Below, piece after piece: positions 12,582 through 44,745 of a stretch of 64,000 nt of DNA; position 1 is the stretch's first letter; the number at the start of each line of letters is the position of its first letter. The position numbers were made by a program, and so were the translations under genes. Under the pieces are notes generated by a model that saw only the letters and a list, made by a program, of their open reading frames with translations, did no database searches and had not been told where the DNA came from. Source of the DNA: Bacteroidia bacterium (GTDB taxonomy: Bacteria; Bacteroidota; Bacteroidia; B-17B0; Aurantibacillaceae); NCBI GenBank assembly GCA_016787705.1, contig JAEUTP010000007.1, positions 62,001 through 126,000 on the forward strand. Reading direction: 5' to 3'.

Positions 12582-14723
12582 TTACAGATTGTCTATAAAA
12601 TAATTACAAATTTTTTCCATTAAATGTGCCCTATCTCTTCCAAGTACATTATGCTCATGGCCCGGATATACATAATAATCCAGCTGTATGCCCTTATCTA
12701 CCGCCTTTTTTTGATACATAATGCTGTGCTGCCAAACTACAACCGGATCCTGCGCGCCATGGATCATTAATAATTTGCCTTTTAATTTGTCAACATAATT
12801 CAATAAATTATTTCTATCATAGCCTTCTTTATTTTCCTGTGGACTATCGTTATACCTTTCACCATACATGATCTCGTAATAACTCCAATCAATTACCGGA
12901 CCGCCGGCCGCACCCACTTTAAATGTGCCGGGATAACGCGTCATTAACGATGTGGTCATAAAGCCACCATAGCTCCAGCCGTGTACTCCTAAACGTGAAG
13001 CGTCAACATAAGGCAACGATTTTAAATAGTTAACGCCACTTATTTGGTCTTCCATTTCTTTTGTCCCCACCTGCCTGTGTATGGCCTGCTCAAAAGCCTT
13101 GCCGCGGTAGTTCGTTCCCCTGCCATCTAATGTAAAAACAATAAAACCTTTTTGTGCCATGTACTGATACCAAACTTCTCCGCCGGCCATCCATGTATTG
13201 GTAACCATTTGCGAATGCGGACCATTATATAAATAAACAAGCACAGGGTATTTTTTTGTGCTGTCAAAACCTACAGGTTTAAACATTCTGCAATACAAGT
13301 CTGTGCCTTCATTATTTTTAATGGTAAACAAATTCCATTTACCTAATTTATAATCCTTCAATGGATTTTCTGCTTTATAAATAGTATTTGATTTGCCTGT
13401 AACTGCATTAACAACCCTATATTCACGTGGAGTGTAGCAAGAAGTATAAACATCAATAAAATAGTCTGCTTTTTGGCTTAATATGGCAGTGTGGTAACCG
13501 TTATCCTGTGTTAACTTTTTCATTTTCCCGCTCTTTAAATTCACAGAGTAAAAATCCTGGTTAATAGGGCTTTGTTCTGCAGCATGAAAAAACAGGTTTT
13601 CTCCTTTATCGTCAAAACCGGCATCATCCTTTACTTCCCAAGCACCTTTTGTAAGTTGTTTTATTAAAGAACCATTAATGTTGTATAAATAAAAATGGTT
13701 AAAGCCATCTCTTCTGCTTTGCCAGATAAATTGCGAGGGATTGTTTTTTACAAATAACATAGGGTTTAAAGGTTCGGCATATTTTTCATCTTTTTCTTCA
13801 AACAAAGTCCTTTTAAAGTCACCGGTTGTTGCATCGTACTCATTTACTTTAAAATGATTTTGCTCACGGTTCAATACCACTATGTAAATGTATTTTTCAT
13901 CTGGCGAAAAAGTAATGTTAGTGAGATATTGATCTTTTGGGCCTTCGGTTTTTATTTTAGTGCTTGTGTTGTTTTTTAGGTTGTAAACAAATACAGTTAC
14001 GTAGTGACTTTTTTTACCTGCCATTGGATATTTAATATTTTTGTTTTTTGCCGGGTAGGTCGTCCAGTCAATGATCGGATAATCATCCACATCACTTTGA
14101 TCCATTCTGTAATAGGCAAGGGCATTACCATTCGGGCTCCAGAATAAACCTTTGGTGATACCAAACTCATCGCGATGTACGCTTTTTCCGTTTACAATTT
14201 CGTAAGACCCATCGGTAGTAACCTGGTTGGTTTTACCATTATTTGTAACAAAAACATTGTTTCCGTTTACATAAGCAAAAATTTCCCCTTCTTTAAAAAC
14301 ATCAAGATTCTCTAAGGTAAAATCATTTAATTTTCTTTCAGACTTAACTGTTGTTTTTTTATCTAAAGAATGCAACCATTCGCCTTTGGTATTGCGGAAA
14401 TAAAATTGATTTTCGTTTTGCCATAATAGTCCGTCAAAGGCCGAGACAGTATCAATAGATGCTTTAACAAGATCTTTATTTAAGCCAACGGTAGAGATAG
14501 TTGATACCGTTTTGCCTGTTTCCGCATTGATGATGATCAATTCATTTTTTTCGATATAGGCTACTTTATTTGAACCGGGAATAAAACCAAGCGCCTGTAA
14601 GCGTTTTGGTGCAAGAGTGCTACGGCCTTTGTTTAATGCATCCTGGATGGTTAATAATTTATCTTGCGCAAAAGTAAATGATGAAGCAATAAATAGTAAG
14701 AGGATAACGACAGCTTTTTTCAT
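12582..14723 (-). CDS. S9B-type dipeptidyl peptidase IV
   Basis: A 713-residue serine peptidase removing Xaa-Pro dipeptides. A signal peptide (VVILLLFIASSFTFAQ) indicates a periplasmic location. The central part is the eight-bladed DPP4 propeller (for example FGITKGLFWSPNGNALAYYR and NITFSPDEKYIYIVVLN). The C-terminal alpha/beta-hydrolase domain carries the catalytic triad: Ser584 in GWSYGGF, Asp659 in HGAQDP and His691 in GHEHNV. The Asp region reads HGAQDPVVVW rather than the common HGxxDDNVH, a mild deviation. It faces divergently away from a DUF5819-like gene, with only 25 bp to the first possible start codon of that gene. Likely role: nutrient peptide processing. Confidence 0.93.
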   Translation of the reverse strand: MKKAVVILLLFIASSFTFAQDKLLTIQDALNKGRSTLAPKRLQALGFIPGSNKVAYIEKNELIIINAETGKTVSTISTVGLNKDLVKASIDTVSAFDGLLWQNENQFYFRNTKGEWLHSLDKKTTVKSERKLNDFTLENLDVFKEGEIFAYVNGNNVFVTNNGKTNQVTTDGSYEIVNGKSVHRDEFGITKGLFWSPNGNALAYYRMDQSDVDDYPIIDWTTYPAKNKNIKYPMAGKKSHYVTVFVYNLKNNTSTKIKTEGPKDQYLTNITFSPDEKYIYIVVLNREQNHFKVNEYDATTGDFKRTLFEEKDEKYAEPLNPMLFVKNNPSQFIWQSRRDGFNHFYLYNINGSLIKQLTKGAWEVKDDAGFDDKGENLFFHAAEQSPINQDFYSVNLKSGKMKKLTQDNGYHTAILSQKADYFIDVYTSCYTPREYRVVNAVTGKSNTIYKAENPLKDYKLGKWNLFTIKNNEGTDLYCRMFKPVGFDSTKKYPVLVYLYNGPHSQMVTNTWMAGGEVWYQYMAQKGFIVFTLDGRGTNYRGKAFEQAIHRQVGTKEMEDQISGVNYLKSLPYVDASRLGVHGWSYGGFMTTSLMTRYPGTFKVGAAGGPVIDWSYYEIMYGERYNDSPQENKEGYDRNNLLNYVDKLKGKLLMIHGAQDPVVVWQHSIMYQKKAVDKGIQLDYYVYPGHEHNVLGRDRAHLMEKICNYFIDNL

Positions 14724-34953: not shown

Positions 34954-37155
34954 TTATTGTTTGATGAACTTTTTAATAGTTGTGCCATTTCCGCTTTCAA
35001 CTTGTATAAAATAAACCCCACCCGGTAAATTACTTATTTGCAATGTTGTGTTACTTAAAATGTCTTTTTTAATTAATATAATTTCGCCAACTGTATTAAC
35101 AACATAAATGGTAATATTATCCATCCTTTCGCTTGCAGAAAAATCAATACTAATAAAATCATTAGCCGGATTAGGATACACGGATATAAAATTATTATTA
35201 ATTGCTTCTTCAATGCCTGTGCAAGTACTTACGCTTTGAGTAATGGTGGCTGCTGTTACCGGGCACCCAATATTAGCACCAACAATTGTATAGGTGGTAT
35301 TAGTGGTAGGTGAAATAACTACCGATGTTGAGAAAGGAACGCTGTTCAAAGAAAAATTAGTAGCTCCGCTTGCCGTTATGGTTGCCTGTTGACCAACACA
35401 TAATAAGTTGTTACTTGTAGCCAGCGTAATTGTGGGAATAGAGCTTACAGTTAAATTTAATACAGTTTGTGGGGAAACGCCACAACCGCTATTATTAGTT
35501 AAGTAATAGCTATAAACGCCTGCAGGAGTAAAGGGATTATTAGTATTGTATGAGGTTCCATTAGCCAAAACGGTTGTAGAAGTTGAAGAAGCGTACCATT
35601 TAATGCCGCCACCTACTGAGCTGGCAGTCATGATATAATAGTCGCCATCGCAAATTGCTGTTAATGTATTGGTAACCACTGGCGAGGCTACCACCGTGCT
35701 TGTGCAGGGAGCATAATTAATTAAAAAGCCATTACTATTCGAATTGCCTGCATAATAGTTCTGTATAACACCAGGGCTAGGATCTAAATTTCCGGTCCAA
35801 GAAAAAACGCCGGAAATTAAATATTCATTAAACTCGTTTACTAATAAATTGTTTATGGATGCTGACGATAAGCCACCTCCAAAAGTACGTGTATAATCAA
35901 ATACGCCCGTTCCAATCATTTTTGTAAAAAAGGTTCCATAGGCACTGGCACCAAAGGTAATGGTGTTGGTTCCTACAGGGTTTGTATTACAGGTGCCTAG
36001 TGCATTTCCTGAAATTATTAAATTATTAAATTGGTCTAACGAAATATCCGTTACATTATCATCATTGGCCCCTCCTAATTTAAACCCGGCGGTTAAACTT
36101 CCGGTTGCGGGATTGATGCTTAGATAAAAAATGTCATTCATAGTTCCAAGTAAACTATTATTTGTTACAACATAGCCACCATTATAAAATATGTCTAAAT
36201 CAGTAAAAGTGCCTGCAATAATTAAATTTCCACCTGGAATTAAAAGACTTTTTGTTGCTGAAGTGCCGTACGTTGGTCCGCCAAATTTTTTAGCCCACTG
36301 TAATGTACCTACCTGATTATATTTTACTACAAAACCATCCGCCCCGCTCGCTGCTGCTATAGTAAATGTTGATGCAGACGGATCCATGTCGGGAGTGCCA
36401 TAATAAGAACCTGAAACAATTACATTACTGCTGCCGTCACAAACAATTGTATTGCCATATTGATCGCTAGTACCTGTATTAGCCCAGGCAGTAAAAAAAG
36501 AACCTGTAGTTGCGTTTAATCTCCAAACATACATATCAGCATTGGTTGCTGTAAGATTATATGCCGTTGGGCTTGGGTCAAAATCAAAAGTACCATTAAA
36601 GTAACCTGTAACGAATACACAATTAGTGGCCGGATCAAAAGCAATATCATTAGCAACATCATTTCCGGTGTTGCCAATTTTTTGATGCCACTGATAAACA
36701 CCATTCGAATCTAATTTAATTACAACACCATCTGTTGTTGATGATGTGCCGCTGTTGTTTACGTTTACAGTACCAGTACCCGGATCCACATCAATAGCAC
36801 CATTATAATTACCAACTAAGTAAACCGATTTATTATTGTCTAAAATTAACCTGTTAACCGTTAAAGGGCCATTAAATGCGTATGCCCACAGCAATTGCTG
36901 TGATGTTGTAATTCTTCGAATATAAACCGAACCGGGTACAGTTGTGGATGCAACACTTGGATTAATATCAACCGGTGTTGTTTGCCCACCACAAACAAAA
37001 ATAGTGTTTTTTGAAACTGCCATTTTTGAACTAGAGCTTGCTGAAGTGTTTATTCCTATTTTTTCAATAGTTTTGGCATAATAGTTTTGTGCAAGCAACG
37101 CTCCGTTAATGAATGTAAATAGCGCAAAACTTAATTTGTAAATAATTTTTTTCAT
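34954..37155 (-). CDS. T9SS-sorted surface protein with DxDPS repeats
   Basis: A 733-residue secreted protein: signal peptide (YKLSFALFTFINGALLAQ), then a beta-propeller-like domain with recurrent AIDVDPGT/TFDFDPSP/TPDMDPSA motifs about 50-60 residues apart, typical of Bacteroidota surface propellers. Residues ~490-640 include Ig-like regions (YYIMTASSVGGGIKWYASS, CVGQQATITASGATNF). The last ~80 residues are a T9SS type A domain (ISVYPNPANDFISIDFSA ... NLPGGVYFIQVESGNG). The promoter at 37178-37250 carries LytTR-like repeats, so expression is probably controlled by the neighbouring two-component locus. Ligand unknown; adhesion inferred. Confidence 0.88.
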   Translation of the reverse strand: MKKIIYKLSFALFTFINGALLAQNYYAKTIEKIGINTSASSSSKMAVSKNTIFVCGGQTTPVDINPSVASTTVPGSVYIRRITTSQQLLWAYAFNGPLTVNRLILDNNKSVYLVGNYNGAIDVDPGTGTVNVNNSGTSSTTDGVVIKLDSNGVYQWHQKIGNTGNDVANDIAFDPATNCVFVTGYFNGTFDFDPSPTAYNLTATNADMYVWRLNATTGSFFTAWANTGTSDQYGNTIVCDGSSNVIVSGSYYGTPDMDPSASTFTIAAASGADGFVVKYNQVGTLQWAKKFGGPTYGTSATKSLLIPGGNLIIAGTFTDLDIFYNGGYVVTNNSLLGTMNDIFYLSINPATGSLTAGFKLGGANDDNVTDISLDQFNNLIISGNALGTCNTNPVGTNTITFGASAYGTFFTKMIGTGVFDYTRTFGGGLSSASINNLLVNEFNEYLISGVFSWTGNLDPSPGVIQNYYAGNSNSNGFLINYAPCTSTVVASPVVTNTLTAICDGDYYIMTASSVGGGIKWYASSTSTTVLANGTSYNTNNPFTPAGVYSYYLTNNSGCGVSPQTVLNLTVSSIPTITLATSNNLLCVGQQATITASGATNFSLNSVPFSTSVVISPTTNTTYTIVGANIGCPVTAATITQSVSTCTGIEEAINNNFISVYPNPANDFISIDFSASERMDNITIYVVNTVGEIILIKKDILSNTTLQISNLPGGVYFIQVESGNGTTIKKFIKQ

Positions 37156-37177: not shown

Positions 37178-37250
37178 TGCAAATAAACAGCACTGAAGAA
37201 TCCTTGCCAAAACAACCTTGTGAAATGTAGATTTAACCTTGTGAAATGTA
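37178..37250 (-). promoter_or_regulatory. Composite LytTR-like promoter 1
   Basis: Half-sites at 37235-37250 and 37214-37229, each ACATTTCAC-AAGGTT on the minus strand, 21 bp apart. GTTTTGG follows directly, and a TATTTGCA -7 element lies at 37178-37185, 28 bp from the proximal repeat. The gene start is at 37155. Confidence 0.75.
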
Positions 37251-37365: not shown

Positions 37366-39171
37366 TTATTGTTTAATAAATTTTTTAATAGCTGAACCAT
37401 TTTTACTTTCCATTTTTACAAAATAAATTCCGCTTTTTAAATTATCTATATTTAAAGTTGTGTTGGCGGCACTTGCTTTTTCAGTTACTATCGTTTCGCC
37501 TAATGCATTGATGATATAAAATGTTGTAGTATCAGCCGACTCAGTTATTAAACTAACAGTCATAAATTCATTAGCAGGGTTAGGATAAATGCTAATTGTA
37601 TTATTGTTATCAATTTCATTAATACCAACTGTGTTGCAATTACTAACTACTTGAGTGATAGTTCCGCTTGCAGAACAGCCTACGTTGTTTGTTACTGAAA
37701 GCGTATAAGTTGTAGTTACAGTAGGACTAATTAATAAGTTAGCCGAGTTGCTTCCACTACTCCAGGTGTATGTTACTACCGTTGGGCCACTATATCCTGC
37801 TAAATATAAATTTGTAGAGTTACCAACACACAAATTTGCAGTACCGCTATTAATAGTTGTAATTGTAGGTGAGGTAAGCACCGAAATGTAACAATTTACT
37901 GTGCCTATGCAACCCCCCGATGTTGTGCCCGTTATAGTATAGTTTGACGACGTTGTTGGCGTTACAACTGCACTGCCGCCACTAAACGTATATGTGCTTG
38001 CTCCACTTGGTGCAATAGTAAATGATTGACCCGAACAAATAGTTCCACTACTTACAGAAATACTTGCGGTGCAAACAGAAGTATTTAGGAAAACTGCCAT
38101 TCCATTATATTGGCTAACAGCTAAATCTATTTTAGTATCGTTATTAAAATTGCCTGCTATTAATCTTAAACCATTAGCACCAGGAATTGTGAAATTAACA
38201 CCTCCTGAAAAAGTTCCTAAACCATTGCCTTTTAAAACAGATACGTTATTAGAGTTCGTAACCGCTAAATCAATTTTAGTATCCCCATCAATATCTGCAC
38301 AAACTAACGATGTTGGTTGAGGAATAACATTGTAATTTATGGCAGTTGCAAAAGTACCAGTGCTGCTACCAAGCAAAATCGAAATATTATTTGAATCGTA
38401 ATTTGCAACTGCTAAATCCAGGTTACCATCTCCATTAAAATCGGCCGCTTTAACTGAGCGCGGCCCGAGCCCAGTTACATAATTTACCGGCGTACCAAAT
38501 GAACCGGTACCGTTACCAAATAAAACAGTTACCGAACCAGTTGTGGAAGTTCCCTTAGCAACAGCAATATCTTTATTGCCATCGTTATTAAAGTCGCCTG
38601 ACGTTAGGGCATAAGGAAATGACCCCACCGCAAAATTTGTAGATGTGCCAAAAGTTCCAGTTGTACTGCACAACGCTACAGTTATATTTGCACCATTATT
38701 ATTTGCTGTGGCTAAATCTGGCTTCCCATCATTATTAAAATCATCAGCTATCATATCCAACAAATTATTACCAGTTGCAAAAGCGCTATTGCTCACTGCT
38801 GTAAAAGTTCCTATACCTGTACCCCCTCTTGTTCTCACAGTATTAAAATTGTCAGTGTGCGCTAAATCCAGTTTTGCATCATTATCAAAATCGGCTACTG
38901 CCAAAACATATGGCTGAAATGCTAGCGCAGCCGAATTAAAAGAATTTGTAAACGTACCGGTACTGCTTCCTAAGAATGTTCCATAAGTACTAGTAAAGAC
39001 ATTGGATATTACAATATCTTTAAACCCATCACCATTAAAATCGCCGGACGCAAGATCGCTTGTATTTGTGCCGGTTCCATAATATTGAGTAGCAGGCTGA
39101 AAGTTAATTTGTGCTTTTAGGCCACATACCGATAATAAACAGGTTGCAGCTAATGTGTAAATTTTTTTCAT
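37366..39171 (-). CDS. FG-GAP/VCBS-repeat surface protein with T9SS sorting domain
   Basis: A 601-residue secreted protein. I chose the ATG at 39171 (MKKIYTLAATCLLSVCGLKAQ signal peptide), since the open frame before it to 39270 is not protein-like. About eight integrin-type FG-GAP/VCBS repeats follow, each with a calcium-binding DxNxDGxxD loop (SGDFNGDGFKDIVISN, ADFDNDAKLDLAHT, ADFNGDGNLDLAVANYD). A later Ig-like region and a T9SS domain (ISIYPNPANEFMTVSLI ... NLKSGIYFVKMESKNG) end the protein. Its promoter has the same LytTR-like repeats as its neighbours. Likely a calcium-dependent surface adhesin, by analogy. Confidence 0.88.
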   Translation of the reverse strand: MKKIYTLAATCLLSVCGLKAQINFQPATQYYGTGTNTSDLASGDFNGDGFKDIVISNVFTSTYGTFLGSSTGTFTNSFNSAALAFQPYVLAVADFDNDAKLDLAHTDNFNTVRTRGGTGIGTFTAVSNSAFATGNNLLDMIADDFNNDGKPDLATANNNGANITVALCSTTGTFGTSTNFAVGSFPYALTSGDFNNDGNKDIAVAKGTSTTGSVTVLFGNGTGSFGTPVNYVTGLGPRSVKAADFNGDGNLDLAVANYDSNNISILLGSSTGTFATAINYNVIPQPTSLVCADIDGDTKIDLAVTNSNNVSVLKGNGLGTFSGGVNFTIPGANGLRLIAGNFNNDTKIDLAVSQYNGMAVFLNTSVCTASISVSSGTICSGQSFTIAPSGASTYTFSGGSAVVTPTTSSNYTITGTTSGGCIGTVNCYISVLTSPTITTINSGTANLCVGNSTNLYLAGYSGPTVVTYTWSSGSNSANLLISPTVTTTYTLSVTNNVGCSASGTITQVVSNCNTVGINEIDNNNTISIYPNPANEFMTVSLITESADTTTFYIINALGETIVTEKASAANTTLNIDNLKSGIYFVKMESKNGSAIKKFIKQ

Positions 39172-39193: not shown

Positions 39194-39266
39194 TGCAAAG
39201 AAATGTCATTATAAAAAGCTCGCCAAAACAACCTTGTGAAAGGTATATTTAACCTTGTGAACTGTA
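39194..39266 (-). promoter_or_regulatory. Composite LytTR-like promoter 2
   Basis: Half-sites at 39251-39266 (ACAGTTCAC) and 39230-39245 (ACCTTTCAC), period 21 bp; GTTTTGGCGAG follows; -7-like TCTTTGCA at 39194-39201, 28 bp from the proximal site. The ATG follows at 39171. Confidence 0.75.
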
Positions 39267-39384: not shown

Positions 39385-40011
39385 TTATTCCAGTTCAACA
39401 ATATCTCCGGTAACACCATCTACTTTATAATTGCCAAAAGCATTATCTGTAATATTGTTTTTAGTGAATTGGGAGTAACAATAAAACGTTAATTTATTTG
39501 ATATTTTCACCAAACAATCAGTATTTGTTTTTCCTTTTGGTTGTGTAAAGATAACAGGTGTTTCGTCTTGTATTGTAAAAACACTTTTTTGTGATACTAC
39601 ACTTTTTGCATGGTTGTGATAAATAAGAAGCAGAATATCATTGTCAATCGAATTATCCTCATTAGAATATTCAATACAACAAATAACTCCACGCATTAGC
39701 TCATTAATACCAATATCATATTTAGCCCATACTTTAATTGAATTAATTATTTTTCCGTTTTTATTTTTACCCACCTGGTAACCTGTAAGATCTTTCCAAA
39801 AGAAAACTGGCACGTTTTGCCAGGAATCAACATCTGTGGTTCTAAGGCCATGTTTTTTTTCAATTTTTATTTCACCTGCAAATCGTCCGTCCTTTAAACT
39901 CTCAATGTATTTGTGTAATGAGTCGGATTTGGATTGCGCAACTAGTATTCCATTAAAAACGAAAATAGAAAGGTATAATACTAGAATCAGTTTTAAATTA
40001 TATTTATTCAT
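39385..40011 (-). CDS. Secreted protein of unknown function
   Basis: A 208-residue protein with a signal peptide (LILVLYLSIFVFNGILVAQ). The mature region is mixed alpha/beta with no recognised domain; it includes FWKDLTGYQVGKNKNGKIIN and a paired ICCIEYSN stretch. Unlike its neighbours it lacks the composite LytTR promoter, and it has its own start region downstream of a strong terminator. Its T9SS domain is absent, so it is probably periplasmic. The remainder of 39272-39384 is a short gap with no gene. Confidence 0.65.
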   Translation of the reverse strand: MNKYNLKLILVLYLSIFVFNGILVAQSKSDSLHKYIESLKDGRFAGEIKIEKKHGLRTTDVDSWQNVPVFFWKDLTGYQVGKNKNGKIINSIKVWAKYDIGINELMRGVICCIEYSNEDNSIDNDILLLIYHNHAKSVVSQKSVFTIQDETPVIFTQPKGKTNTDCLVKISNKLTFYCYSQFTKNNITDNAFGNYKVDGVTGDIVELE

Positions 40012-40138: not shown

Positions 40139-41134
40139 TTACTTTAAAACATCTTTATACTGCATTGCATTTTCTTTTGTAATACGCCCCAGGTACATAG
40201 TACCTGTAGCTTTTAGCTCTCCATTAAATTTACTTCCATCCCATACATCAAATGCGTGTTCTTCTTCTATGGTAATACACGTGTGGTTATATATTCCATT
40301 TTTTATATTTTCTTCGGTTTGGTAAATACAAATTGCAAATATTCTTCTTTTGGTAATAAAGTCATCATAAGTTCCGTTAACGGTCTTCTTTTCTTTAATC
40401 ATTTTCCATTCATTTGTAGGGCTAATGGCTTTTAGCATATCAGGAATTCCAAAATAGCAATATGCAATTTTATCATTACCAACGCGTGTTTGGCACAACT
40501 CCTGAAGTTTGGCTTGATTGCAGGGATTTGTTTTAGTAGGCGCTGGTAATTTAACATTAGCTGTTGCGGCATCTTGTTTCTTTTTCTCTTCTGCATTTTT
40601 AGCGTCATCAACATCCTTTACTGCTTTTATAAAATCAGCTACTGCAACTTCCAGCTTCTTGTAATTTTCACACTTATCATCTTTTTGAATTTCTTTAATA
40701 AATTCTTTGTTCGATGAAAACACCTCTATTAGATTTAAAAATTGCATTTCGCAAGCCTGGCCCTGGAAATATAGCTTTAAAAACACGCCATCTTGTATTT
40801 TAATAATGGAATTGTGACAATCACCATCATTAAAAACAGGTAATTTCATGCCGGGTATTTCAATTTTTTTAAACGTTCTATCAGGATCTCCTCCATATTT
40901 TGATGTGCCTTTTGTAGCTAAATTATTTTCATCTATTACCGAAAATTTTTCGGTAATAAGAACCTCTTTTGCTTTTTCTTTTTTGCCAATATTTTCATAG
41001 TAAAAATAATAGGCTCCTTTTGGTGTTGCAGCATTTTCAAGCTTTTCTTTCATTTTGGCAAATGCACCCTGCGCACTTAAATTTGCACTTAAACTTACTA
41101 TAGCTATTGATGCTATTAAACATAATTTTTTCAT
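40139..41134 (-). CDS. Secreted protein of unknown function under LytTR-like promoter
   Basis: A 331-residue protein with a signal peptide (CLIASIAIVSLSANLSAQ). Two mixed alpha/beta regions, an N-terminal one with YYFYYENIGKKEKAKEV and a C-terminal one with FDVWDGSKFNGELKATGTM, are joined by a Lys/Ala-rich stretch (AKNAEEKKKQDAATAN). There are four Cys in short-spaced positions (for example ECEMQF, CNQAKLQELC), so disulphides in the periplasm are likely. No T9SS domain. Its promoter has LytTR-like repeats identical in layout to those of the two T9SS genes, so it likely belongs to the same regulon. Function unknown. Confidence 0.7.
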   Translation of the reverse strand: MKKLCLIASIAIVSLSANLSAQGAFAKMKEKLENAATPKGAYYFYYENIGKKEKAKEVLITEKFSVIDENNLATKGTSKYGGDPDRTFKKIEIPGMKLPVFNDGDCHNSIIKIQDGVFLKLYFQGQACEMQFLNLIEVFSSNKEFIKEIQKDDKCENYKKLEVAVADFIKAVKDVDDAKNAEEKKKQDAATANVKLPAPTKTNPCNQAKLQELCQTRVGNDKIAYCYFGIPDMLKAISPTNEWKMIKEKKTVNGTYDDFITKRRIFAICIYQTEENIKNGIYNHTCITIEEEHAFDVWDGSKFNGELKATGTMYLGRITKENAMQYKDVLK

Positions 41135-41158: not shown

Positions 41159-41231
41159 TGCAAATAAAAAGCAATAAAAAAGTCTCGCCAAAACAACTTT
41201 GTGAAATGTATATTTAACCTTGTGAAATGTA
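41159..41231 (-). promoter_or_regulatory. Composite LytTR-like promoter 3
   Basis: Half-sites at 41216-41231 and 41195-41210 (both ACATTTCAC), period 21; GTTTTGGCGAG follows; TATTTGCA at 41159-41166, 28 bp from the proximal repeat. The ATG at 41134 follows after about 20 nt of leader. Confidence 0.8.
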
Positions 41232-41272: not shown

Positions 41273-41602
41273 TCACAAAACCACTTTTTCAAATTCCGAT
41301 TTTAAATTTCGAGATACAGGAATCGGTTCTTTAATGTTTTTTAAATACAATAATAAATCAGATTTAATATAACGTTCAACATAATTTGTATTTATGACAT
41401 ATGAACGGTGTGGCTTAAAAAAAAGCTTAGCAGGTAATTTTTCTAAAATATCTTTTAAAGTATTTGAAGCCAAAATACATTGCCCGTTAGCTAAATACAC
41501 GGTACAATAAATATTTTCGGCCTTTAATAAAACAATATCTGACATTAAAATAAAAACTATTTCGCGGCCTATCTTAAAAGCAATTTGATGTAATTTTTGC
41601 AT
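41273..41602 (-). CDS. LytTR-only DNA-binding protein (no receiver domain)
   Basis: A 109-residue protein that is essentially one LytTR domain: IVFILMSDIVLLKAENIYC, the loop LASNTLKDILEKL, and the recognition segment FFKPHRSYVINTNYVERY. I chose the ATG at 41602 over a TTG at 41611. It has no receiver, kinase or membrane segment, so its activity must be set by amount or by ligand or partner binding. Its own promoter carries the same repeats as the three secreted genes, so it is probably autoregulated. It is divergent from the histidine kinase gene, with which it shares this control region. Confidence 0.9.
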   Translation of the reverse strand: MQKLHQIAFKIGREIVFILMSDIVLLKAENIYCTVYLANGQCILASNTLKDILEKLPAKLFFKPHRSYVINTNYVERYIKSDLLLYLKNIKEPIPVSRNLKSEFEKVVL

Positions 41603-41606
41603 AAGC

Positions 41607-41679
41607 TGCAAAACACAAAATAAAACACTTCAAAACAAAAAATAACTTGTCAAATGTGGTTTTAAACTTGTGAAATGTT
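41607..41679 (-). promoter_or_regulatory. Composite LytTR-like promoter 4 (autoregulatory)
   Basis: Half-sites at 41664-41679 (ACATTTCAC) and 41643-41658 (ACATTTGAC), period 21; GTTTTGCA at 41607-41614, 28 bp from the proximal repeat. The predicted start lies only ~1-3 nt before the ATG at 41602. The repeats also end 30 bp before the kinase ATG at 41709 on the other strand, so they may control both genes. Confidence 0.75.
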
Positions 41680-41708
41680 TTTATATTAGGGATTTTAAAT
41701 TCGCTTGT

Positions 41709-44015
41709 ATGCAGCTCAGGCTTTTTTTACTTACTTATTTTTTCATTGGGTCCTCATTTATTAATGCACAGTTTAACCAACACGATAGCTTAGTTTCTGT
41801 TTATAATAAAACGAAGGTTAAAGATACCAGTGTTTGTAAGCTACTCTCAGCTATTATAGAGAGCGCTCAGGATTATGAGATCATGAAACCATATTTAGCT
41901 GCTTATCGTGAAATTGTATTTAAACATATTACCTATAATAATTACAAGCAAGACGATAAAAAACCATTTGTAAATTATTTTATAAACTATCATTACGAAT
42001 GCGGCTATGTTTATGGACAGATAGATCAATTGGATAGTACAATTTTTTATTTAAAATTAACTGAAAAATATTGCGAGGAGTTTAACGAAGTTTCAATTGC
42101 CGCAAATAACTATACAGGGTATATGGGTTACTACTATGCTGTTGGCGATGCAAAAAAATCGTTGCAATACGCAACTAAAGCAGTAAAGTTCTATTTAAAA
42201 GATAAGAACTTAGAAAACGCCGCAACTACAGCAAGGAGCATAGGGGTGATATTGGAGATGCAGGGTAAAAGTAAAGAGGCTTTGCAAATTTATAAAGTGT
42301 TAGAAAAATATTATTTAGTAAAAAAGAGAGATGTGGATATGGGCGACATCTACTATTGTTTAGCAGGAGTATATAAAACGCTCTCGCAGTATAATATATC
42401 ATTAAATTATATGCTAAGATCTACAGAGTTTAGAGTTAAGGTAAAGGATGAAAGAAATTTGGCCCGAAATTATGATGGAATAGCTGTTTTGATGGAATAT
42501 GGTGATAGGTATACCGAAGCAATACCTTACTACTCAAAGGCAATTTCATTAAATAAAAAACTAAATGCAAAATATAGTTTGGCTGGCAATTATAATAAGC
42601 TAACACGCTGTTTGATGAAAGCAAACCCGGATTATAAAAATAATTTAAAAAAGATAGATAAGTATGAAGCATTTTTTAAGTATGCACTAAAACTTTCCAA
42701 CGAATCAGAAGTTCCTTTACAGCAAGCCTATTCTTTAGCATCCCTGGGCGGATTAATGTTAACCAAGTCTGATTTAAATAAAGGTGAAAAACAAAAACAC
42801 TTATTAGAAGCTGAAATTTACCTTAAAAAAGCCGAAGCAATTCAAATTAGTCACGATTTAAAGTCAGAATATGTGGTTTTGTGTAATTACTTAATAGATT
42901 TATATGAACGTAATAATAATAACAATTTAGTTGAATATTATGCCAACAAAAAATTATCATTGGCAAAAGATATAGATAATTTATATGAGATAAAACAAGC
43001 AGCCATAGTTTTAAAGGAGTTTTACTTATCGCAAAATAATTCTAAAAAAGCATTTGAAATGGCTGAATTAGTTATTTCAGCTAATGAAAGTATAAAAGAG
43101 GAGAATATAAAAAATGACTATTTAAAAACAGAATTTAACTACGAAACCGAAAAAAAAGAAGCTGCTATTAAGGATCTCGAACATCAAAACAAAATAGCTT
43201 CCTTACAAGCTAAACAAAAGACCATTGTATTATATAGCATCATTGGTTTAGCAATAACTATAGCATTAATTACTTACTTTTTATTTACCAGGTTTAAAAC
43301 AAAAAAGCAAAACGAATTATTAAAAACAAAATTAGAAGACGCTGAGTTACTGTTAATAGAAAAACAAAAGGCAGCTGACAGCGAAATTAAAGCCATTAAG
43401 AGCCAGATGAATCCTCATTTTTTTTATAACGCCCTTAATTCAATACAAGGTTATATTTATAGTGGCGACAAAGAAAATGCCGCTAAATCGCTTGGATTGT
43501 TTAGTGATTTGAGCCGTTCGGTTTTAGAAAGCAGCCGCAATACCGAAATTAGTTTATATGATGAAATCGAATTACTGGAAAATTATTTGAAACTGGAAAA
43601 CATGCGTTTGCCAAAAATAAAATACACTATCAATGCTTCTGATAACATTAATTTACATGACGTTTATATACCGGCAATGATACTACAGCCATTGGTTGAA
43701 AACGCTGTTAAGCATGGTTTAGCTAATAAACAGGGCGAGGGAGTTTTAAATATAAAGTTTGAAGAAAACAACAACAAATTATTTATATACATTGAAGATG
43801 ATGGCATAGGCCGTGCTGCAGCAGCAGAAATAGGAAAGCGGATGATTAAAAAATCGGCATCGTTTAGCACTGAAGCAAACATCAGCCGTATTGAATTATT
43901 AAATGCCAATAAAACCGAAAAAATAACTCAAGATATTATTGATAAAAAGGACAAAGAAGGCAATGCTGCCGGAACTATTGTTAAACTTGTAATACCGATT
44001 GAACTGTATGATTAA
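41709..44015 (+). CDS. TPR-containing membrane histidine kinase (YesM/LytS type)
   Basis: A 768-residue kinase. I chose ATG 41709, where a signal peptide begins (LFLLTYFFIGSSFINAQ), over the GTG at 41670. The periplasmic part holds repeated TPR pairs (residues ~120-450, e.g. GDIYYCLAGVYKTLSQYNIS). A transmembrane helix (IVLYSIIGLAITIALITYF, ~505-525) leads to a coiled linker and the His_kinase domain with phospho-acceptor His570 in SQMNPHFFYNALNSIQG, N-box PLVENAVKHGL and G-box EDDGIG. Such kinases pair with LytTR response regulators. Start of the response-regulator gene overlaps the stop. Its signal is unknown. Confidence 0.92.
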   Translation: MQLRLFLLTYFFIGSSFINAQFNQHDSLVSVYNKTKVKDTSVCKLLSAIIESAQDYEIMKPYLAAYREIVFKHITYNNYKQDDKKPFVNYFINYHYECGYVYGQIDQLDSTIFYLKLTEKYCEEFNEVSIAANNYTGYMGYYYAVGDAKKSLQYATKAVKFYLKDKNLENAATTARSIGVILEMQGKSKEALQIYKVLEKYYLVKKRDVDMGDIYYCLAGVYKTLSQYNISLNYMLRSTEFRVKVKDERNLARNYDGIAVLMEYGDRYTEAIPYYSKAISLNKKLNAKYSLAGNYNKLTRCLMKANPDYKNNLKKIDKYEAFFKYALKLSNESEVPLQQAYSLASLGGLMLTKSDLNKGEKQKHLLEAEIYLKKAEAIQISHDLKSEYVVLCNYLIDLYERNNNNNLVEYYANKKLSLAKDIDNLYEIKQAAIVLKEFYLSQNNSKKAFEMAELVISANESIKEENIKNDYLKTEFNYETEKKEAAIKDLEHQNKIASLQAKQKTIVLYSIIGLAITIALITYFLFTRFKTKKQNELLKTKLEDAELLLIEKQKAADSEIKAIKSQMNPHFFYNALNSIQGYIYSGDKENAAKSLGLFSDLSRSVLESSRNTEISLYDEIELLENYLKLENMRLPKIKYTINASDNINLHDVYIPAMILQPLVENAVKHGLANKQGEGVLNIKFEENNNKLFIYIEDDGIGRAAAAEIGKRMIKKSASFSTEANISRIELLNANKTEKITQDIIDKKDKEGNAAGTIVKLVIPIELYD

Positions 44016-44745
44016 ATGTGTTATTATTGAAGATGAGCCACAGGCTGTTACTTTACTTAAAAACATTATAGCATCTAAATTTCCACACATTGAGGTACTA
44101 GCTGATTTTGATAAAATTAGCGTGGCTTCAAAATTTATTAAAGAACATAAACCAGATTTTGTTTTTTTAGATGTTCAATTAAATGGTGAGTTAGGAATTG
44201 ATATTGCCAACCATTTAACCAAAGAAGAACTTGATTTTGAAATTATATTTACAACAGCTTATGGTGGGTTTGCGTTAGAAGCCTTTGCATTAAGCGCTGT
44301 TGATTATATACTCAAACCAATTAACGAAATTCGTTTAATTGAAGCGGTAACCCGAGTCTTGAAAAAACATCACGTGTCGCTTGAACAATTAAAAATTTTA
44401 CAGGAAGTTTCAACGACTGATAAAATTGAAAAAATAGTTTTATCAATGAATGAAAAAAAAATAATTGTGAACGTAAAGGATATTGTTTTTTTAAAGGCAG
44501 ATAATGTGTATACTGAATTTTATTTAAGCAATGCTGTAAAGTATGTTGTGTCAAAACCATTAAAGGAATACGAGCTGTTGCTAAGTCAAACAAACTTTTA
44601 TAAGCCTCACCGCTCATACATCATTAATAAAAATGCGATTAAAGCCTATCAAAAAGTAAATGCTGAAATTGAAATGAGTAATGGACAATATGTTAGTCTT
44701 TCAAGAGACAAGAAAAAAGAGTTTGAGGAATTACTATTAAGATAA
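44008..44745 (+). CDS. LytTR response regulator
   Basis: A 245-residue regulator with an N-terminal receiver domain and C-terminal LytTR domain. The phospho-acceptor is Asp55 in PDFVFLDVQLNG; acidic pocket EDE at 8-10, switch residues in FTTAYGG and the Lys in LKPI are present. The LytTR part runs from about 145 (KIIVNVKDIVFLKADNVY) to FYKPHRSYIINKNAI and the C-terminus. I chose ATG 44008; it overlaps the kinase stop by 8 nt, so translation is coupled. It probably binds the same type of 9-bp direct repeats as the LytTR-only protein. Confidence 0.95.
   Translation: MIKCVIIEDEPQAVTLLKNIIASKFPHIEVLADFDKISVASKFIKEHKPDFVFLDVQLNGELGIDIANHLTKEELDFEIIFTTAYGGFALEAFALSAVDYILKPINEIRLIEAVTRVLKKHHVSLEQLKILQEVSTTDKIEKIVLSMNEKKIIVNVKDIVFLKADNVYTEFYLSNAVKYVVSKPLKEYELLLSQTNFYKPHRSYIINKNAIKAYQKVNAEIEMSNGQYVSLSRDKKKEFEELLLR

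Follow-up and report, generated by a model that had tools for sequence, protein, structure and literature searches.

The DNA analyzed here, a stretch of 64,000 nucleotides that we call the window, carries a gene for a 109-residue protein on its reverse strand (41602–41273, starting with ATG), in which a Pfam search places a LytTR domain (PF04397) at residues 14–106 with a score of 71.5 bits (cut-off 22.6). The same search gives no Response_reg match, so the protein does not have the N-terminal receiver of a LytTR response regulator (RR). Divergent from this LytTR-only gene is an operon on the forward strand, which encodes a 768-residue TPR sensor histidine kinase (41709–44015; Pfam His_kinase at 79.7 bits, TPR_12 and HATPase_c) and a 245-residue LytTR RR with a receiver (44008–44745; Pfam Response_reg and LytTR), the start of which is overlapped by the kinase stop. 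Only 107 nt separate the two divergent ATG codons, and there is therefore no upstream room for a missing receiver-coding stretch, which rules out that the receiver was lost through a frameshift. The protein is thus receiver-less, as a preliminary description of the locus had proposed.

By sequence, the LytTR domain is of the same kind as the DNA-binding domain of Staphylococcus aureus AgrA (3bs1, E 0.0017), although AgrA carries a receiver. R66 and R98 of the protein align with N201 and R233 of AgrA, and the matching motifs of the neighboring RR contain R202 and R233; many LytTR proteins in the phylum share this motif, which is not diagnostic. The genome from which the window comes has 27 LytTR matches. 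It also encodes a second stand-alone LytTR protein of 108 residues (G000:C23:749620-749943; L067:5618-5944, reverse strand), divergent from another LytTR RR (L067:6227-6988), and genome G026 holds a 54% relative of it. The region upstream of this second gene, up to the divergent RR, contains no direct repeat, and we set it apart from the operator system described below as a separate case.

Between the divergent start codons of the LytTR-only and kinase genes is a 33-bp operator (41646–41678) in which CTTGTSAAATGT occurs twice at a 21-bp period, as the direct repeat CTTGTCAAATGT-N9-CTTGTGAAATGT, and which is common to both promoters. It matches the operators at 37217–37249, 39233–39265 and 41198–41230, each ahead of a secreted-protein gene and all in one orientation, with starts at 37155, 39171 and 41134; the sequence thus agrees with the earlier proposal that the gene's own promoter carries the repeats of its presumed targets. 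The first of these genes encodes an SBBP beta-propeller protein with a T9SS sorting tail (34954–37155, reverse strand; TIGR04183 at 48.7 bits), the second an FG-GAP-like repeat protein with the same type of tail (37366–39171, reverse strand; TIGR04183 at 58.5 bits), and the third an exported 331-residue protein of unassigned family (40139–41134, reverse strand), which is followed on its strand by a 208-residue gene (39385–40011). Genes similar to the SBBP target stand under the operator in genomes G013 and G026, and a 335-residue gene similar to the 331-residue target, again with an operator, is present in G013. The targets are exported proteins, several of which carry T9SS sorting tails. A search of the whole 4.5-Mb genome that allowed up to three mismatches found just four copies of the repeat, each of them at this locus, and the reversed control pattern gives no match at the same threshold over the same genome.

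We tabulated 14 target-type promoters from four genomes, among them that of the 331-residue protein, and in every one the distance from the operator end to the start of a −7 TTTG is exactly 33 nt; the background frequency of TTTG in the window is 0.95% of positions. The LytTR-only promoter has this spacing as well: the TTTG of its −7-like element, GTGTTTTG (41616–41609, reverse strand), begins exactly 33 nt past the operator. The element was noted in the preliminary description, though its position there, 41607–41614, is off by 2 nt. It does not have the TA with which TAnnTTTG begins, and the sequence upstream of the gene contains no complete TAnnTTTG motif. A −33-like TTTG (41636–41639, reverse strand) stands 19 nt before the −7 box, at a position corresponding to that of the TTTTG after the target operators. 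As a combined pattern at one mismatch or fewer, operator and TTTG are found at 14 local sites and 4 elsewhere in the four genomes, in which the reversed control yields 0 matches. Two of the four non-local matches lie in G026 before exported-protein genes, one of them for an SBBP-repeat protein, and one lies in G092, a genome of another family, before an exported protein resembling that genome's local LamG target. A one-mismatch match in the genome of the window (G000:C23:637103-637168), which has a full TATATTTG box and precedes a short exported protein, marks a tentative fifth, unlinked target. An operator-like site on G013 C18, with 3 mismatches and the TTTG displaced by 4 nt, was taken as a chance match.

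The TAnnTTTG element has been placed at −12 to −5 (PMC9723704), and Flavobacterium data put the start 4–5 nt past the TTTG (PMC6847099, PMC9723704). Leaders computed from these two values are 2, 3 and 2 nt for three LytTR-only genes versus 13–33 nt for eleven target genes. For the gene in the window, the predicted start is at ∼41604, with a leader of about 2 nt (1–2 nt), so that a near-leaderless mRNA is still the prediction, as it was in the preliminary description. The main support for it is that three species, despite diverged sequences, keep the −7 element in the same place between operator and ATG, and near-leaderless transcription is accordingly predicted for 3/3 orthologues, though these three promoters, being orthologous, are not independent events. 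Leaderless mRNAs make up 5.5% of the mapped mRNAs of F. psychrophilum (PMC9723704), and leaders under 10 nt amount to 3.7% in B. thetaiotaomicron according to the literature.

On its other side, the operator lies 3 nt from a −7-like box of the kinase, TATATTAG (41682–41689, forward strand). TAnnTT(A/G)G occurs 3 nt beyond the operator at all four sites of the genus that face kinase or RR genes (three kinase promoters and the separated RR gene of G026) and at 0/11 of the other operator sites tabulated; before the G092 kinase, the box is absent at that place. The separated RR gene is the weaker case because the leader implied by its box would be long. In G026 (L063:12935-14847), a target gene with an operator sits between kinase and RR, and the RR has its own operator at 13987. 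With the operator thus abutting the core promoter of the kinase, the layout is suggestive of repression: since the two touch, any occupant of the operator would probably lower kinase/RR expression.

Orthologues of the LytTR-only protein occur in two congeners, at 51% and 48% identity, with the same divergent layout and the operators kept, so the synteny with kinase and RR genes extends to both. Exactly three of 40 genomes of the genus have clustered operators, the same three that have the LytTR-only gene, and a few others show single 3-mismatch operator matches. The cognate RR (E ≤ 1e-60) is likewise confined, among the 40, to these three genomes, at 82% and 65–66% identity, and its receiver residues, including D9, D55 and K103, are invariant in them. 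A single scan of the contigs of named relatives returned one locus only, 35% identical. Across the class, 395 sampled genomes contain one further RR orthologue at E ≤ 1e-60, that of G092, where the RR accompanies two local T9SS cargo genes with the same operator/TTTG geometry; a search with the LytTR-only profile found no stand-alone gene in this genome. There is one operator class, and it is through G092 that the RR is tied to it. The comparison in this way supports the expected association of the RR with the same DNA, although G092, where the reading frames of kinase and RR are both split as a result of error or decay, carries less weight than an intact genome would. The G092 kinase (L116:6267-9144), beside the orthologous RR, has Reg_prop and Y_Y_Y sensor domains in place of TPRs; its sensor part has apparently been exchanged. 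Short LytTR frames in the distant genomes G092, G315 and G086 were read as split RR genes rather than stand-alone proteins, and a 134-residue LytTR frame on G013 C25, which adjoins a 96-residue receiver-only frame and a kinase, is probably a split RR too.

A tree of 73 LytTR domains (105 columns) places the LytTR-only trio (100/99) as sister to the LytTR clade of the RR, G092 included (100/97), with a joint support of 93/84, which lies under the strong threshold of the tree tool. Direct descent of the LytTR-only gene from the neighboring RR is therefore likely rather than proven, given this support on only 105 columns. Since G092 shows the same geometry without the gene, the simplest history is that an RR-operated regulon later gained a copy of the RR output domain, which probably reads its parent's operator.

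The nearest characterized arrangement is that of BlpS with BlpH/BlpR in Streptococcus gallolyticus, where BlpS is a 108-residue LytTR-only protein and its competition is experimentally supported (PMC8545106). There, too, a LytTR-only gene lies beside a kinase/LytTR-RR pair, the regulated promoters have a common operator, and the gene is itself a regulon member; at our locus the adjacency comes with the same divergent synteny in three genomes. However, blpS is directly upstream of blpRH and likely cotranscribed, whereas the gene described here is divergent, belongs to Bacteroidota and is predicted to be near-leaderless; the BlpS system has a peptide signal and bacteriocin targets in place of T9SS cargo, and competition by our protein is a prediction. 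Our literature search, with most subscription journals outside its coverage, found no study of a LytTR-only protein in Bacteroidota. The receiver-less proteins of the LytTR Regulatory Systems (LRS; HdrRM and BrsRM) activate their own promoters, and they resemble this case in being LytTR regulators outside two-component signaling whose own promoters are controlled through direct repeats immediately before them (PMC6193735). Here the operator lies just before the −33-like TTTG. In an LRS, however, a transmembrane inhibitor gene adjoins the regulator in one operon, whereas the LytTR-only gene is flanked by the divergent kinase operon and by the exported 331-residue protein with its own operator, and sits beside a two-component pair.

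These observations suggest that the LytTR-only gene is a receiver-less duplicate of the neighboring RR output domain, retained under the operator which that domain would read. Because it appears to be switched through the same repeats as the secreted-protein genes, the protein most likely feeds back on its own system, and that it is a feedback paralogue acting on the shared operator is, in our judgment, very probable. Phosphorylated RR (RR∼P) would bind the direct repeat of 21-bp period in front of the weak promoters, whose TTTG −7 boxes lack the TA, and would activate the secreted-protein genes and the LytTR-only gene together; that it acts as an activator is suggested by the placement of the operator directly upstream of these promoters. 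The LytTR-only protein would then take the same operators. As it cannot be phosphorylated and its mRNA is predicted to be near-leaderless, its amount, set by the output of the system, would decide the extent of competition. We infer binding, activation, competition and the leaderless start from features present in the sequences: the domain, the operators, the promoter geometry, their conservation and co-occurrence, and the sister placement. The preliminary description had seen control by abundance instead of phosphorylation, which the data do not support: with its promoter under the operator of a probable RR activator, the module probably comes into play after phosphorylation and does not replace it. 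The earlier interpretation as a whole is thus partly supported.

The sign of the feedback, on which the preliminary description had made no choice, is more finely balanced. By analogy with BlpS and BlpR, attenuation through competition with RR∼P is slightly favored over amplification, and the full account, attenuating sign included, has in our view an even chance of being right. Alternatively, the protein may need no phosphorylation to activate the targets and its own promoter, such that a brief kinase/RR signal passes into a self-sustaining state, as in an LRS; we regard this as a serious contender that falls a little short of even. The repeats directly upstream of its own −33 region match the layout of positively autoregulated receiver-less LytTR regulators (PMC6193735), and the −7 boxes appear activator-dependent, but the defining membrane inhibitor is not adjacent, and the same promoter layout is present in G092, where there is an RR but no LytTR-only orthologue; the layout by itself therefore speaks only for RR activation. 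In an unlikely variant, the labor is divided: the LytTR-only protein would use the shared operator mainly to repress the kinase promoter, leaving the targets to the RR. The TAnnTT(A/G)G box at 3 nt from the operator, present before the kinase genes of three species and the separated RR gene of G026, would fit it; the target operators share the same consensus, which leaves no apparent selective binding, and the G092 kinase does not have the box at that place. That the gene is a decaying relic, a functionless truncated duplicate, is very improbable. It does diverge faster (48–51% identity) than the RR (82%, 65–66%), but its frame is open, and start, promoter spacing and LytTR core are conserved in three diverged species. 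Finally, a more elaborate version of the feedback paralogue, which we offer tentatively and consider rather doubtful as a whole, is a dosage governor: an RR output domain duplicated and moved under its parent's operator, near-leaderless, in a sporadic T9SS-cargo island where the bidirectional operator also restrains the kinase.

Judged from its sequences, this is a real, conserved arrangement, very probably one of feedback. It offers a compact, testable case of a two-component system that copies its own DNA-binding domain and so gains a feedback arm from within; on LytTR operators in this phylum, our literature search turned up little. The pattern of operator, 33 nt and TTTG locates targets genome-wide, with a reversed control that has no matches. 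Moreover, the contrast between a regulator that is near-leaderless and targets that have leaders, both under one type of promoter, would allow a direct test of leaderless translation in bacteria without Shine-Dalgarno sequences.
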